Shown here piece by piece: positions 6,430 through 11,597 of a DNA stretch of 27,606 nucleotides (position 1 is the first letter of the stretch; each line of letters starts with the position of its first letter). Source of the DNA: a virus; the IMG/VR virus record IMGVR_UViG_3300042922_000241, positions 1-27,606 of that record. One strand, 5' to 3'. Under the pieces are notes generated by a model. It saw only the letters and a list, made by a program, of their open reading frames with translations. It made no database searches and had not been told where the DNA came from. The position numbers were made by a program, and so were the translations under genes.

Positions 6430-8299
6430 AGCCGTTAGACAGTTTACTAAGCAAGAATTCAATTCAGAAGCCCCTTACAAGCTGCTATTTGATCTGAGGA
6501 ACAACCGGTTTAAGTACAACCAAGTATTCACCATCTTAAAGGAAAATGCTACAAGTGTAGGATTCAAAGATTTTGGCAGGATGCTCAAATCATATGCAGA
6601 GGATCAAGCTGGTAAAGGTGTGATTATTGACAACGTTACTCAGTTTGATGGCCAGGATATAGAGCTTAAGACCGGAGAGTGGCTTGCGGATGACTTTGCT
6701 GTAACAAGGAAAAATGAGCGCAATGGTGAAGACATAGCCTGTGTACACCCGATCATGCCAGTGGAGTGTCTGTCAAATATTGATACCGGAATTGAGAAGC
6801 TCCGGATAGCTTTCAAAAAAGGTAAGTTTTGGCGCAATGAAATATATGAGCGTCGGACCATTGCTAGTGCTAACAATATTTTAGAGCTAGCAAACAACGG
6901 CGTAGCGGTAACATCGGAAAGCGCAAAGTATCTGGTCCGATACCTTCATGATGTAGAAAATCTGAATTACGATATCATACCAAAGCATAATTCCGTTGGA
7001 CGGCTTGGATGGACAAATAGTGATGGGTTTAGTCCGTATGTAGATGATCTTATATTCGATGGAGCTAATAACTTTAAGAATATCTATGACTCAGTTAGAG
7101 CAGATGGCAGTTTCGATGTATGGCTTGAAATGGCTAGGAAAATTAGATCAACGGATTCACCGGCTAGAATTATGTTAGCAGCCAGCTTCGCCAGTGTTCT
7201 CCTTAAGGTTTTGGGTAAGCTTAACTTTATGGTTCACCTCTGGGGAGGTACCGAAGCTGGTAAGACGGTTTCATTAATGTTTGCAGCCTCTGTTTGGGCA
7301 AACCCTAGTGAAGATGGATATATACAGACTTTCAATGGTACTCAAGTAGCCATTGAGCTACTGGAAGGCTTTACAAATAGCTTGCCACTTATTCTAGATG
7401 AGTTTCAGTTGGTCAAAGATAAAAAGATGTTTGAGAGCATTGTATATATGATTTGTGAGGGCATGGGTAGATTGAGAGGTAAGAAGACCGGAGGATTACA
7501 AGATACTCCTACTTGGAAGAATTGTACCTTAACCTCAGGGGAATCACCTATAACCAATGCTTCCTCCGGAGGTGGTGCAGTAAACCGTATTATCGAAATA
7601 GAATGTCGTGGCAAGCTTTTCGAAGATGCACCTGCAGTGGCTGATGTAGTCCGTAAAAACTACGGTCATGCCGGGAAGATATTCGTAATGCTTTTAAGCA
7701 ACGATGGAGCTAAAGAAGAAGCCGTGAGATTGTATAAGGAATTTTATAACGCCCTGGGAACAGACTCAACCGAGAAGCAGACAATGGCTGCAGCGATATT
7801 GTTAACAGCTGATGCATTAGCTACAAAGTGGATATTTACTGATGGCAACGCACTCAAGGTTGATGATATTGATAAGTACCTACATAGTAAGGAATCAGTC
7901 GATGTTAACCTGAGGGCTTATGAATACTTCAGGGATATGATTGCAGCTAATCATTATAAATTCATCGATGGAGGAAGACCTCCCACAGGAGAGTGCTGGG
8001 GCAGTTTATCTGGTAGAAAAACCAATGTACTAAAGACAATTTATGAGAAGATCTGCAATGAGGGAGGATACGACTCAAAGGCTCTTGCAAGCTGGATGAA
8101 ACAAAGAGAGCTCTCGGAGACTTCCTCGGACAGAGAATTTAAAAAGGTCAGTATTAACGGAATAAAACTTTGGTGTGTATGCCTTCCTGAACAAGATACG
8201 GAATTTGAACCGACCGGACAGCTTAAGATCCCATTCGCAGATGCGGTTCCCAAAAACCAAGAATGGACGGAAGAACGATGGAATAGTATAACCCAATAA
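6419..8299 (+). CDS. DUF927-domain helicase/primase-like ATPase
   Basis: 626 residues. The central region matches the DUF927 family: 'GRLGWTNSDGFSPY', Walker A WGGTEAGKTV (W275-V284), Walker B LPLILDEFQ (D327, E328), then a 'GRLRGKKTGG' segment and 'LTSGESPI..ASSGGGAVNRIIEI', a sensor/arginine-finger-like part. The N-terminal 200 residues and the C-terminal helical region (about 500-600) have no motif I recognise. DUF927 proteins occupy the place of replicative helicase or primase-helicase in many Gram-positive phages and mobile elements. The gene ends directly at the iteron region, and one iteron copy (8245-8252) lies in its last codons, so it may encode the origin-acting ATPase. Confidence 0.85.
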   Translation: MADEAVRQFTKQEFNSEAPYKLLFDLRNNRFKYNQVFTILKENATSVGFKDFGRMLKSYAEDQAGKGVIIDNVTQFDGQDIELKTGEWLADDFAVTRKNERNGEDIACVHPIMPVECLSNIDTGIEKLRIAFKKGKFWRNEIYERRTIASANNILELANNGVAVTSESAKYLVRYLHDVENLNYDIIPKHNSVGRLGWTNSDGFSPYVDDLIFDGANNFKNIYDSVRADGSFDVWLEMARKIRSTDSPARIMLAASFASVLLKVLGKLNFMVHLWGGTEAGKTVSLMFAASVWANPSEDGYIQTFNGTQVAIELLEGFTNSLPLILDEFQLVKDKKMFESIVYMICEGMGRLRGKKTGGLQDTPTWKNCTLTSGESPITNASSGGGAVNRIIEIECRGKLFEDAPAVADVVRKNYGHAGKIFVMLLSNDGAKEEAVRLYKEFYNALGTDSTEKQTMAAAILLTADALATKWIFTDGNALKVDDIDKYLHSKESVDVNLRAYEYFRDMIAANHYKFIDGGRPPTGECWGSLSGRKTNVLKTIYEKICNEGGYDSKALASWMKQRELSETSSDREFKKVSINGIKLWCVCLPEQDTEFEPTGQLKIPFADAVPKNQEWTEERWNSITQ

Positions 8300-8561
8300 A
8301 ATCAAGGGTTACGTGTTTACGGTTCCCAATGGTTCCCAAAGGTCTGGGAACTGCTAAAGCCAGTAAAATCAAGGGTTTGCGCCAAAGGTTCCCAGTACCC
8401 AGAAATTTTTATTACTATATATAAAATAATAAAATAAAAAAGGATTTTCTATACACGCGTAAAAATCTTGGGAACTTTGGGAACCCGACCAGTTTTGCCT
8501 TATAAATCAAGGGTTTAGCGGTTCCCGAAGTGTTGGGAACTCCTTGGGAACTCTGGGAACC
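8297..8561. repeat. Iteron block, candidate phage replication origin
   Basis: This 276-base gap codes for nothing I can find. It holds GGTTCCC at 8321, 8331, 8387 and 8520, and its reverse complement form TGGGAAC at 8345, 8469, 8478, 8534, 8545 and 8554. A further GGTTCCCA is at 8245 inside the upstream gene. A second repeat, AAATCAAGGGTT, occurs three times (8299, 8366, 8504). Forward copies dominate on the left and reverse copies on the right, around an almost pure A/T stretch at 8404-8443. Iterons flanking an AT-rich unwinding element next to a helicase gene is the classic layout of a theta origin. Pairs such as 8332-8338/8345-8351 can also form hairpins. Confidence 0.7.
8402..8445. other. 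AT-rich core of the iteron region (possible DNA unwinding element)
   Basis: Between iterons there is a stretch with only A and T apart from one C and a GG, including TATATATAAAATAATAAAAT. It is the lowest-GC spot noticed in the window and lies near the centre of symmetry of the GGTTCCCA copies, as expected for the duplex-melting part of an origin. Confidence 0.5.
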
Positions 8562-8575
8562 GTAAGGAGGTTATC

Positions 8576-8788
8576 ATGATACCATCACCAATCGAAGTAA
8601 GACAGATTTTCAACGACACTTACAATGTATTTTATAAAAAATGGATCAATCCTGATACAGTTTATGATCCGGTGGTCATGATGCAGGAGGCTAGGGAGCT
8701 TGATCGGAAGTATGGTGGGCAGAAGGTTGTAAGCATCGCAGAGTTAATTGTCTGTATCGAGGATGTTAGAAGGAGGGAGCTTAAATGA
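8576..8788 (+). CDS. Hypothetical phage protein, 70 aa
   Basis: ATG at 8576 behind AAGGAGG (8564-8570), directly after the last iteron. The protein has an N-terminal 'IPSPIEVRQIFNDTYNVFYKKW' helix and a C-terminal 'RRRELK' tail. Such short proteins with a 'FYKKW' core are common in clostridial phages near replication genes; function unknown. It overlaps the next gene by four bases (ATGA). Confidence 0.65.
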   Translation: MIPSPIEVRQIFNDTYNVFYKKWINPDTVYDPVVMMQEARELDRKYGGQKVVSIAELIVCIEDVRRRELK

Positions 8789-9024
8789 ATAACACATTGG
8801 GAGATTTGAATAATCATTTATTTGCACAGCTTGAGCGATTAAGTGACGAGGATTTGAAGGGTGACGACCTGAAAGAGGAAATAACCAGGGCTAAAGCAGT
8901 AAATGATGTTGCGACCAGGATAATTGCAAATGCAAGCGTGGTACTGCAGGCTAAGAAAGCAACTAATGATTTTCTTGGAGAGTATGGCATAAAGGGCGAG
9001 CTGCCTAAGATGCTGGAGGGATAA
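8785..9024 (+). CDS. Conserved-looking phage protein, 79 aa
   Basis: Starts within the stop of the previous gene and ends one base before the HNH gene. The core 'LKGDDLKEEITRAKAVNDVATRIIANASVVLQA' is a long helix. I recognise the pattern 'L..EI.RAKA...VA..II.N' from small phage proteins that commonly precede HNH endonuclease genes. Role unknown. Confidence 0.7.
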   Translation: MNNTLGDLNNHLFAQLERLSDEDLKGDDLKEEITRAKAVNDVATRIIANASVVLQAKKATNDFLGEYGIKGELPKMLEG

Positions 9025-9025
9025 C

Positions 9026-9826
9026 ATGTATAAATATCCAGATAAGGTACAGACATTCATAGCTGATAACGTATCAGGAAGAAGAACACAGGAATTAGTT
9101 GATCTGGTTAATTCAAGGCTCAAGACAAATTTCACGGTACCCAAGATGAGATCATACATGAAAAACCATGATTTAAAGAATGGGCTGCCGACAAGGGTTA
9201 AAGGTGAAGGATACTCTTATCCTGATCACATAAGATCTTTTATCATGAGTAACTACATCGGTACCGGGCATCAAGCTATGGCAGATATGCTTAATAAGGA
9301 GTTTGGAACTGCATATACCAAAGAGCAAATCAAAGGCTGCTATGCACGGTACAAACTCGATAGTGGCTTAACGGGTCGATACATAAAAGGTCAGGAGTCG
9401 TGGAACAAAGGAAAGCCGAAATCATGGGTTGGTGGTGAGGAGACTCAATTCAAAAAGGGAAGTATTCCTCCAAACCGTTTGCCAATCGGATCAGAGAGGA
9501 TTGACTCAAAAGGCGGATATATATACGTGAAAAAACAGGACGGGCACCTTAATAAGAACTGGAAGCAGAAACATGTATTTATCTGGGAAGAGAAAAACGG
9601 TCCAATACCAAAAGGACATTGCATTCTATTCGGCGATAGTGATAAACGAAATTTTGACATAGATAATTTAATCTGTGTATCCAGGAAGCAACTCGCTAGA
9701 CTCAACCAAAACGGACTAATTCAGAAAGATACCGAACTGACCAAGACAGGGATTGTTATAGCAGATATTCAATCAAAAATTGGCGAAGCAAAAAAGCGCA
9801 ATAAGCCTTCACGAAGGAGGGATTAA
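9026..9826 (+). CDS. HNH endonuclease with duplicated N-terminal DNA-binding module
   Basis: 266 residues. Two related units of about 52 residues (2-53 and 63-114, both starting YxYPDxxxxFI and ending in a K/R-rich helix) are probably helix-turn-helix DNA-binding repeats. A linker with 'SWNKGKP' and 'FKKG..P.N..PIGSER' follows, typical of phage HNH proteins. The nuclease core is 'KHVFIWEEKNGPIPKGHCI' (first histidine at H183) and 'FGDSDKRNFDIDNLICVSR', which gives the H-N-H metal site. It is either a free-standing homing endonuclease or a phage nuclease of the early region. No intron is seen around it. The stop is one base before the next start. Confidence 0.88.
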   Translation: MYKYPDKVQTFIADNVSGRRTQELVDLVNSRLKTNFTVPKMRSYMKNHDLKNGLPTRVKGEGYSYPDHIRSFIMSNYIGTGHQAMADMLNKEFGTAYTKEQIKGCYARYKLDSGLTGRYIKGQESWNKGKPKSWVGGEETQFKKGSIPPNRLPIGSERIDSKGGYIYVKKQDGHLNKNWKQKHVFIWEEKNGPIPKGHCILFGDSDKRNFDIDNLICVSRKQLARLNQNGLIQKDTELTKTGIVIADIQSKIGEAKKRNKPSRRRD

Positions 9827-9827
9827 G

Positions 9828-11597
9828 TTGGAGGAAGAGATCAGACAAGCGATAGATGCAACCAAAGAACAGCAGCCGGTAGCTGTAAGTCTAGAATGGT
9901 ACCAGGATACAATAAAGCTTCCGGAGATCAAAGAGTTTATCCGGGCGAATATCAATGCAGCGAGTCGGAGCTTTGTGGCGATTGGATATTATCTCAAGTA
10001 TGTCAGGGATAATCAGCTGTATAAAGAAGATGGCTATGAGAGCATATGGGATTTTGCACAGAATGAATTTGGTTTTAGCCAATCATGGGCAAGTAGATGT
10101 ATGTTGATCAACGATCGGTTCAGCAAGGAAGGTAATTCTCCTATTGTGCTAGACCAATTTAAGGGATTTGATAAAAGTAAGTTATCAGAAATGTTAACTC
10201 TCACAGACAATCAGCTTGAACAGATTACGATATCAACTACAGTAGCAGAAATTAAGGATATTAAGAAGGCAGAAAAATCTCATGCGACGTCGCATAAAGA
10301 AGTTAAGCCAGAGAAAGAAGAAACCGTTCTAGCGTCAGAACAGAAAGCGGAACAACCTAAATGTGATATTCGAGATCGGATTAATGCATCTGGCGAAAAT
10401 GGACTCACTTGTTCCGGCTTTGATCTAGATCAGTGCAACGACTGTGATAAGTATGATCCTCCGGCTATACACACGCCTGTATTAATTGACGATCTTGACT
10501 TTACGGTCCGTACATATAACTGCCTGAAACGTGCCGGTATTGATACGGTTGAGCAGCTCTGTGAATTAACAGAAACAGAAGTCATAATAATCCGCAATAT
10601 ATCTCAAAAATGCTTAGATGAAATCAAACTCAAATTATCTGAGATCGGCAGAGGATTGAAGCCCGAGGATATCCCCGAAATCGTGAACGATGAACCTGAG
10701 ATTGTGGATATCGAGACGGAATCTGAGAACGATGTGGATGAAACCGTTAATGAAACATCGGAATCTGTTATTGAAGAGCCGGAAGATGTTATCGCTACAA
10801 ATGTATTTGATTGTCCCTGTGATACATGCGGACATGAAATACAGGGATGCTGTGGCTACGATACAAAGGATGATTATTGTGTCCTGGGTAATAAATGGGT
10901 AGCTAAGGATCCTGATCCAGTTGAAACCGTAGAAGCCGATATCATCCAGACGGTACCAGTGAATACCATGTTTAAGCGAGTTCCTATCGGTTTGGCTGAT
11001 GCGAATGGTAAGCAGATTTGTGAAGGCGACATTCTCCTTCATAGCAGCGATACATATCATGTTCACTGGTATCAGATAGCGGCGCGATTTGTTGCTGAAA
11101 GAGTTGAAAGAAGATATAAGCACGCCGACATGGAAGAATGGCCAATTCACCGGATAAGTGAATGTGCAGTCCTTTATAGCATATATGGCGATGAGCCTAA
11201 ACCGGAGAATCCTGTATCGGAAGAGCCCGAACCGGTTCAACCAGTGCTTCCCATCTTGAAGAACAATGATCAGCGTAAGGAATTTATTGAGGCTTATATG
11301 ACATGGCCTATTTGGATCGATCTTCTTCCGACTGGTGAACGGTATTACCGGTACAACCTGACCGTCAATATTGCAATAGTGGTTAAGGTCAGCAAGAGGC
11401 ATATTTGGAAAAACTATAAAGAAACCGATGAGATCGATTTTGATCACGAAGAGTATTATCTCCTGGGAGTAAAGACTGAATATCATTCTAACGGAACGAT
11501 AATAAAAGTGGATACCTCAAAAACGTTTTTTGAATGCTCGAGTAATAAATCCCAACTCGTTGATTATCTGAAGTACTTTCAGAAGAAGGGAGCCTGA
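9828..11597 (+). CDS. Mosaic phage protein with RNA polymerase alpha-CTD and YopX-like domain
   Basis: TTG start at 9828, seven bases after AAGGAGG (9814-9820), giving 589 residues; an upstream TTG at 9780 lies in the HNH gene and has no ribosome binding site. Domains in order: an N-terminal helical region of the DUF3102 type (about 25-150); a first cysteine cluster (179-205); an RNA polymerase alpha C-terminal-domain-like segment (220-281); an acidic linker; a second cysteine cluster (329-351); a YopX-like segment starting 'PIGLADANGKQICEGDIL' (about 382-455); and a C-terminal unit ending in a 'FQKKGA' tail. In the alpha-CTD part the residues equivalent to E. coli R265, N268, C269 and K298 are kept (R228, N231, C232, K261), while G296 and S299 are changed (S259, C262). 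It could bind promoter DNA or host polymerase; no experiment backs this. Confidence 0.8.
   Translation: MEEEIRQAIDATKEQQPVAVSLEWYQDTIKLPEIKEFIRANINAASRSFVAIGYYLKYVRDNQLYKEDGYESIWDFAQNEFGFSQSWASRCMLINDRFSKEGNSPIVLDQFKGFDKSKLSEMLTLTDNQLEQITISTTVAEIKDIKKAEKSHATSHKEVKPEKEETVLASEQKAEQPKCDIRDRINASGENGLTCSGFDLDQCNDCDKYDPPAIHTPVLIDDLDFTVRTYNCLKRAGIDTVEQLCELTETEVIIIRNISQKCLDEIKLKLSEIGRGLKPEDIPEIVNDEPEIVDIETESENDVDETVNETSESVIEEPEDVIATNVFDCPCDTCGHEIQGCCGYDTKDDYCVLGNKWVAKDPDPVETVEADIIQTVPVNTMFKRVPIGLADANGKQICEGDILLHSSDTYHVHWYQIAARFVAERVERRYKHADMEEWPIHRISECAVLYSIYGDEPKPENPVSEEPEPVQPVLPILKNNDQRKEFIEAYMTWPIWIDLLPTGERYYRYNLTVNIAIVVKVSKRHIWKNYKETDEIDFDHEEYYLLGVKTEYHSNGTIIKVDTSKTFFECSSNKSQLVDYLKYFQKKGA

Follow-up and report, generated by a model that had tools for sequence, protein, structure and literature searches.

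Tailed phages with a predicted PICI-type replication origin whose iteron letters track the winged helix of the adjacent DUF927 helicase

At the 3' end of a DUF927 helicase gene, a viral genome fragment carries a crowded array of short repeats in two facing arms around an A/T-rich core, and this array is very probably a SaPIbov1-type (PICI) replication origin of the phage, in which the winged helix of the DUF927 protein would bind GGTTCCCA iterons with a specificity set largely by its wing. The layout of the array, its conservation in relatives, the concerted change of its letters and their association with residues of the wing are all seen directly in the sequences. The window, by which we mean the whole stretch of 27,606 nucleotides that was analysed (IMG/VR virus record IMGVR_UViG_3300042922_000241), encodes recombination proteins (SbcC-like and RecT) upstream of the array and terminase, portal, minor head, scaffold and major head proteins downstream, and therefore belongs to a tailed phage and not to a satellite; PICI satellites are helper-dependent and without a full structural gene set. 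The replicon would be of a known kind, here in a full tailed phage.

The hexamer GTTCCC or its complement GGGAAC occurs 14 times in the whole 27.6 kb window, 11 of them within 8246-8560 and three elsewhere, whilst unrelated hexamers that contain two or more G/C reach a maximum of five copies per 320 bases; the density of the array is far above chance. A preliminary description of this DNA had listed 11 copies of GGTTCCCA, and its positions stand for the hexamer core, but only six copies have that exact spelling, with four reading AGTTCCCA and one GGTTCCCG (Table 1). The three copies of AAATCAAGGGTT that it also reported are all exact and all on the + strand. A switch of orientation across the A/T core is borne out as well, with strands running + + + - + in the left arm and - - + - - - in the right, so that each arm holds one odd copy. 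The core itself has the highest A/T rank among 60-mers of the window, tied with a single other stretch near 12.7 kb. Because the first GGTTCCCA lies within the DUF927 gene, whose stop codon shares its last base with the first AAATCAAGGGTT, the earlier statement that the cluster contains no gene is limited to the gap at 8300-8575. With one of 11 iterons inside the initiator gene, the arrangement is not that of a lambda-type origin, whose iterons lie in that gene; it matches the PICI-type position directly 3' of rep.

Table 1. Helicase gene, repeats and core elements of the array, in window coordinates
Feature	Position	Strand	Basis
DUF927 + HTH_56 initiator helicase (Rep/Cch type), 626 aa	6419..8299	+	Pfam, fold match
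Iteron GGTTCCCA within helicase gene 3' end	8245..8252	+	letter match
Accessory repeat AAATCAAGGGTT, copy 1; first base is last base of helicase stop codon	8299..8310	+	
Iteron GGTTCCCA, left arm	8321..8328	+	letter match
Iteron GGTTCCCA, left arm	8331..8338	+	letter match
Iteron AGTTCCCA, single inverted copy of left arm	8345..8352	-	letter match
Accessory repeat AAATCAAGGGTT, copy 2; surrounding AGTAAAATCAAGG kept in close relatives	8366..8377	+	
Iteron GGTTCCCA, left arm, innermost	8387..8394	+	letter match
A/T-rich core, 81% A/T, candidate melting/helicase-loading site	8396..8468	.	position kept in relatives
Conserved core box TTTTCTATACACGCGTAAAAA, right edge of A/T core	8445..8465	+	
Iteron AGTTCCCA, right arm, innermost	8469..8476	-	letter match
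Iteron GGTTCCCA, right arm, second; 9 bp from innermost	8478..8485	-	letter match
Accessory repeat AAATCAAGGGTT, copy 3	8504..8515	+	
Iteron GGTTCCCG, single inverted copy of right arm; inner pair 42 bp away	8520..8527	+	letter match
Iteron AGTTCCCA, right arm	8534..8541	-	letter match
Iteron AGTTCCCA, right arm	8545..8552	-	letter match
Iteron GGTTCCCA, right arm, outermost	8554..8561	-	letter match

The product of the helicase gene matches the Pfam families DUF927 (5e-40) and HTH_56 ('Cch helix turn helix', 1e-15). A structure model built from a 45-sequence alignment (mean pLDDT 86) has SaPIbov1 Rep (8tch) as its top solved fold match, with Z 34.1 over 457 residues (model residues 81-594), followed by SCCmec Cch (Z 30.9) and then by MCM helicases at Z about 13. 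The protein thus has the composition of a PICI-type initiator, a DUF927 AAA+ helicase with a C-terminal winged helix, which the model places at residues 495-590 with its wing hairpin at 575-590. Residues 576 and 585 are predicted to lie on the two strands of the hairpin and 572 just before it; in the window these positions are R572, K576 and W585.

PICI origins lie just 3' of rep and consist of two iteron sets around an A/T-rich region (PMC6092414; PMC7581432), and the C-terminal domain of SaPI Rep has been reported to recognise iterons directly 3' of its own gene, apparently as two hexamers (PMC7581432). Two iteron sets around an A/T-rich region are likewise present in the window and its relatives. 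The preliminary description knew of no described precedent for the iteron itself, a view that does not survive comparison with the S. aureus island PT1028 (SaPINY940; PMC8989297), where AGTTCCC iterons surround an A/T core in the same position as the window array; SaPI iteron letters in this comparison come from PT1028 DNA only. The window thus shares with the SaPIbov1-type replicon an initiator fold and, directly 3' of the helicase gene, a predicted origin made of two iteron sets around an A/T-rich region, but differs in being the replicon of a full tailed phage and in that no primase gene is recognised beside its helicase. PICIs have a primase gene (pri) next to rep or fused with it. Families were scanned among the neighbouring proteins and none was recognised as a primase; in the relatives L012 and L013 a primase is annotated just upstream. 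SCCmec Cch (pattern 1) has the same DUF927 and HTH_56 domains and a similar fold, but belongs to an SCC cassette. According to a 2020 paper, no SCC origin had been identified earlier, and its own putative origin is that of Cch2 (PMC7581432). There, too, a C-terminal dsDNA-binding domain reads short repeats just 3' of its own gene, but Cch2 is a helicase of a different family (D5/Primase_Cterm) for which only three AAGTG repeats were reported (PMC7581432).

The search of relatives that had been suggested as a check found the same layout beside the DUF927 genes of most relatives, with letters that vary between phages, and so supports the original call of an origin. A hexamer recurs at least six times 3' of the helicase gene in 125 of 137 distinct loci (downstream regions), a count reached by 0.2% of 1370 dinucleotide shuffles and, among 1898 windows taken elsewhere in these loci, by 1.1%; a further 105 of 116 held-out loci also carry the array, and about 9% of relatives have no clear array within 400 bp. 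Across training and held-out sets, the innermost copies are inverted and face each other in 221 of 237 arrays. Inner pairs are spaced by 8-9 bp and the single inverted copy sits at a median of 44 bp. The 128 loci with a readable repeat use 22 hexamers, mostly GT followed by four variable bases. Within a locus all copies change letters in concert and spacing stays conserved, so that close relatives (helicases 74-84% identical) share the layout and position of the array and differ in its letters; the repeat reads GGTACCC in L002, GGTAACC in L004 and L005, and GGTTCCC in L003 and L006. In an alignment of close relatives, AGTAAAATCAAGG, TTTTCTATACRCGCGTAAAAA and the arm positions are fixed while the repeat letters shift together. 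The boxes AATCAAGG and TTTTCTATACRCGCGTAAAAA are conserved as part of the array, and ACGCGCG, which documents the core box TTTTCTATACACGCGTAAAAA in relatives, occurs in 32 of 128 of them (0.9 expected). Among named phages, the array is present for instance in Roseburia phage Jekyll and Ruminococcus phage phiRg507T2_3 (both complete genomes), as well as in Anaerostipes phage AC844P2, Thermoanaerobacterium phage THSA-485A and Faecalibacterium phage Epona; the origin is predicted at about 31.4-31.7 kb in phiRg507T2_3 and at about 8.2-8.55 kb in AC844P2.

Two further observations concern these relatives. A second conserved origin element, AAACCCGCA / TGCGGGTTTGA, occurs as a 9-mer in 23 of 128 relatives (0.1 expected), with sites at 4170-4370 in L014, 4260-4310 in L017, 4560-4600 in L013 and 4420-4450 in L011, and could correspond to the AAATCAAGGGTT repeats of the window. 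Phages with a fused primase-helicase (Epona type; L323-L372) have the same layout, often with longer CCTNNNNCCTAA-like repeats such as CCTTACACCTAA, which fall outside the GT-NNNN register.

Inverted repeats are also found in structured RNA elements and in recombination or attachment sites, and those of the array could be read in this way. Such a reading is scarcely credible here: the array has no Rfam match up to E 0.1 and no terminator-like stem, its scan for promoters and terminators gave nothing above chance, and the repeats behave as spaced binding sites, keeping their positions while their letters change together.

If the array is an origin read by the neighbouring helicase, the letters of the repeat and those of the protein can be compared directly. 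Once the ATPase is allowed for, distance between repeats still correlates with distance between winged helices (partial r 0.25, p 0.001). When the winged helix is allowed for instead, no such correlation is seen with ATPase distance (p 0.96), nor is one seen with the N-terminal part of the helicase (p 0.97). On these correlations, repeat identity tracks the predicted C-terminal winged helix of the helicase and not its ATPase. The columns most strongly associated with repeat identity are 585, 576 and 569, with 572 within the top ten. Arginine or histidine at 572 is found at 47 of 58 loci whose base 6 is C and at none whose base 6 is A, T or G; K/R576 is found at 10 of 12 loci with C at base 4 versus one of 76 with A; and E585 occurs only where base 4 is G (31 of 38). 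L004, for example, combines R572/S576/W585 with the repeat GGTAACCG, and L024 combines N572/E585 with CGTGGGAC.

Phylogenetic contrasts were drawn on a tree made without the winged helix. For R/H572 and C at base 6, 16.1 of 19 independent contrasts agree and none opposes, and 572 ranks first among 1483 column-by-residue-group tests (16.4; best other column 5.2). The register of the GTGG class was moved by one base by judgement, and with that class excluded the 572 association persists (10.3 contrasts against 0). Independent contrasts for K576 with base-4 C and for E585 with GG point in the same direction, in pairs too few for significance. A pairing of W585 with CCC bases was dropped, its independent contrasts being too few.

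The 572 rule arose from inspection, with the column scan and a held-out set as its only safeguards, and was fixed in writing before the held-out set was examined. In this set (81 loci, no helicase more than 90% identical to the training set), base 6 is C at 13 of 18 loci with R/H572 versus six of 63 with other residues (p 4e-7), or 10 of 15 versus three of 41 once near-duplicates are removed (p 1.8e-5), and 572 is again the top column, of 141. E585 and GTGG coincide in 12 of 14 loci both ways, while K/R576 goes with base-4 C in only three of five, and in one of six loci from the A6 scan. Three exceptions to the 572 rule (R572/GTTACA, H572/GTAACA and Y572/GTAACC) look real, and some other misses look like errors of automatic register.

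Residues 572, 576 and 585 all lie on or beside the predicted wing, with 576 and 585 tracking bases 4-5. As the spelling of the repeat shifts in step with so few wing residues in hundreds of relatives, a recognition rule becomes readable and testable. We consider it reasonably likely that a large family of Firmicutes tailed phages has an origin type in common with PICI satellites and has diversified it by a code in the helicase wing, in which R/H at 572 goes with C at base 6, K/R at 576 with C at base 4 and E at 585 with GG at bases 4-5; within the E585 class, N, R/H or A at 572 would, with similar moderate confidence, call for G, C or A as the next base. The code was read from loci in the GT register, which takes in only a minority of the Epona-type phages because of their often longer repeats. 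A distant relative, L023 (about 45% identity), has GTTCCC repeats together with K576 and W585 as in the window, an apparent convergence.

Two other accounts of the array must be weighed against this association. Its repeats might be operators through which the DUF927 protein or another factor regulates the downstream operon, without being an origin at all. The gene at 8576 does have its ribosome site and start directly after the array, and iteron replicons commonly combine an origin with autoregulation, yet no sigma-70-like promoter was found within the array by the promoter scan, and an origin fits both the symmetric arms with their A/T core and fixed spacing and the helicase's fold, which matches that of a replication initiator; operators alone are therefore an unlikely account. 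The version offered as an alternative in the preliminary description, operators independent of the helicase, fares poorly because the letters change together and track the helicase wing, which those of a separate repressor's sites would not. Less likely still, the array would be an origin to which some other initiator binds, the helicase being loaded in a second step. A relative of the DUF927 family does not have to be a sequence-specific DNA binder; the association found here, however, involves the winged helix of the helicase itself, with its peak at a single residue close to the wing among 626 columns, and the next gene after the array (8576-8788) has no family match.

In the mechanism favoured here, an origin bound by the DUF927 helicase, the protein made just upstream would use its C-terminal winged helix to bind the GGTTCCCA iterons, residues 572, 576 and 585 of the wing largely setting specificity. 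The two arms point towards each other over the A/T core, which would allow a head-to-head pair of helicase rings to form on them; the core would then melt, and two forks would leave it in a bidirectional start of replication at the array. Binding, ring assembly, melting and start are steps that we infer. GC skew, which had been put forward as a check, shows no inflection at the array in the window or in the complete phage phiRg507T2_3 and is uninformative, because nearly all genes point one way. Searching between 6632 and 8805 with up to one mismatch found no DnaA box TTATNCACA, such as would stand beside the iterons of a DnaA-dependent plasmid origin.

A PICI-type origin in many full phages links the replication of phages with that of satellites. 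A 2018 paper called this organisation unique to PICIs, an exclusivity that the tailed phages described here appear to break; prior reports of such an origin in phages were sought in the open-access literature. If the reading is true, a wing code diversified in this way would let phages keep mutually incompatible origins, and phages and satellites might exchange initiators or escape those of the other. More than 20 natural iteron types with matching helicases would make origin recognition by a self-loading helicase testable residue by residue, and the match of wing and iteron offers a way to predict origins from the sequence of the initiator. The same reading could extend to pattern-1 SCC elements, which encode Cch.

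Other genes of the window are of interest in their own right. A 79-aa protein (8785-9024) matches PHROG 2044, labelled 'RNA polymerase beta subunit', which is doubtful at such a size. At 1388-1780, a 130-aa protein matches the MazE/AbrB-type antitoxins near its N terminus, while its C-terminal half matches a second antitoxin family, from phages. Finally, a 605-aa protein (9780-11597) carries an RNA polymerase alpha C-terminal domain in mid-chain (PF03118, E 3e-19), an uncommon fusion through which it might bind UP-element DNA or the transcription machinery of the host.
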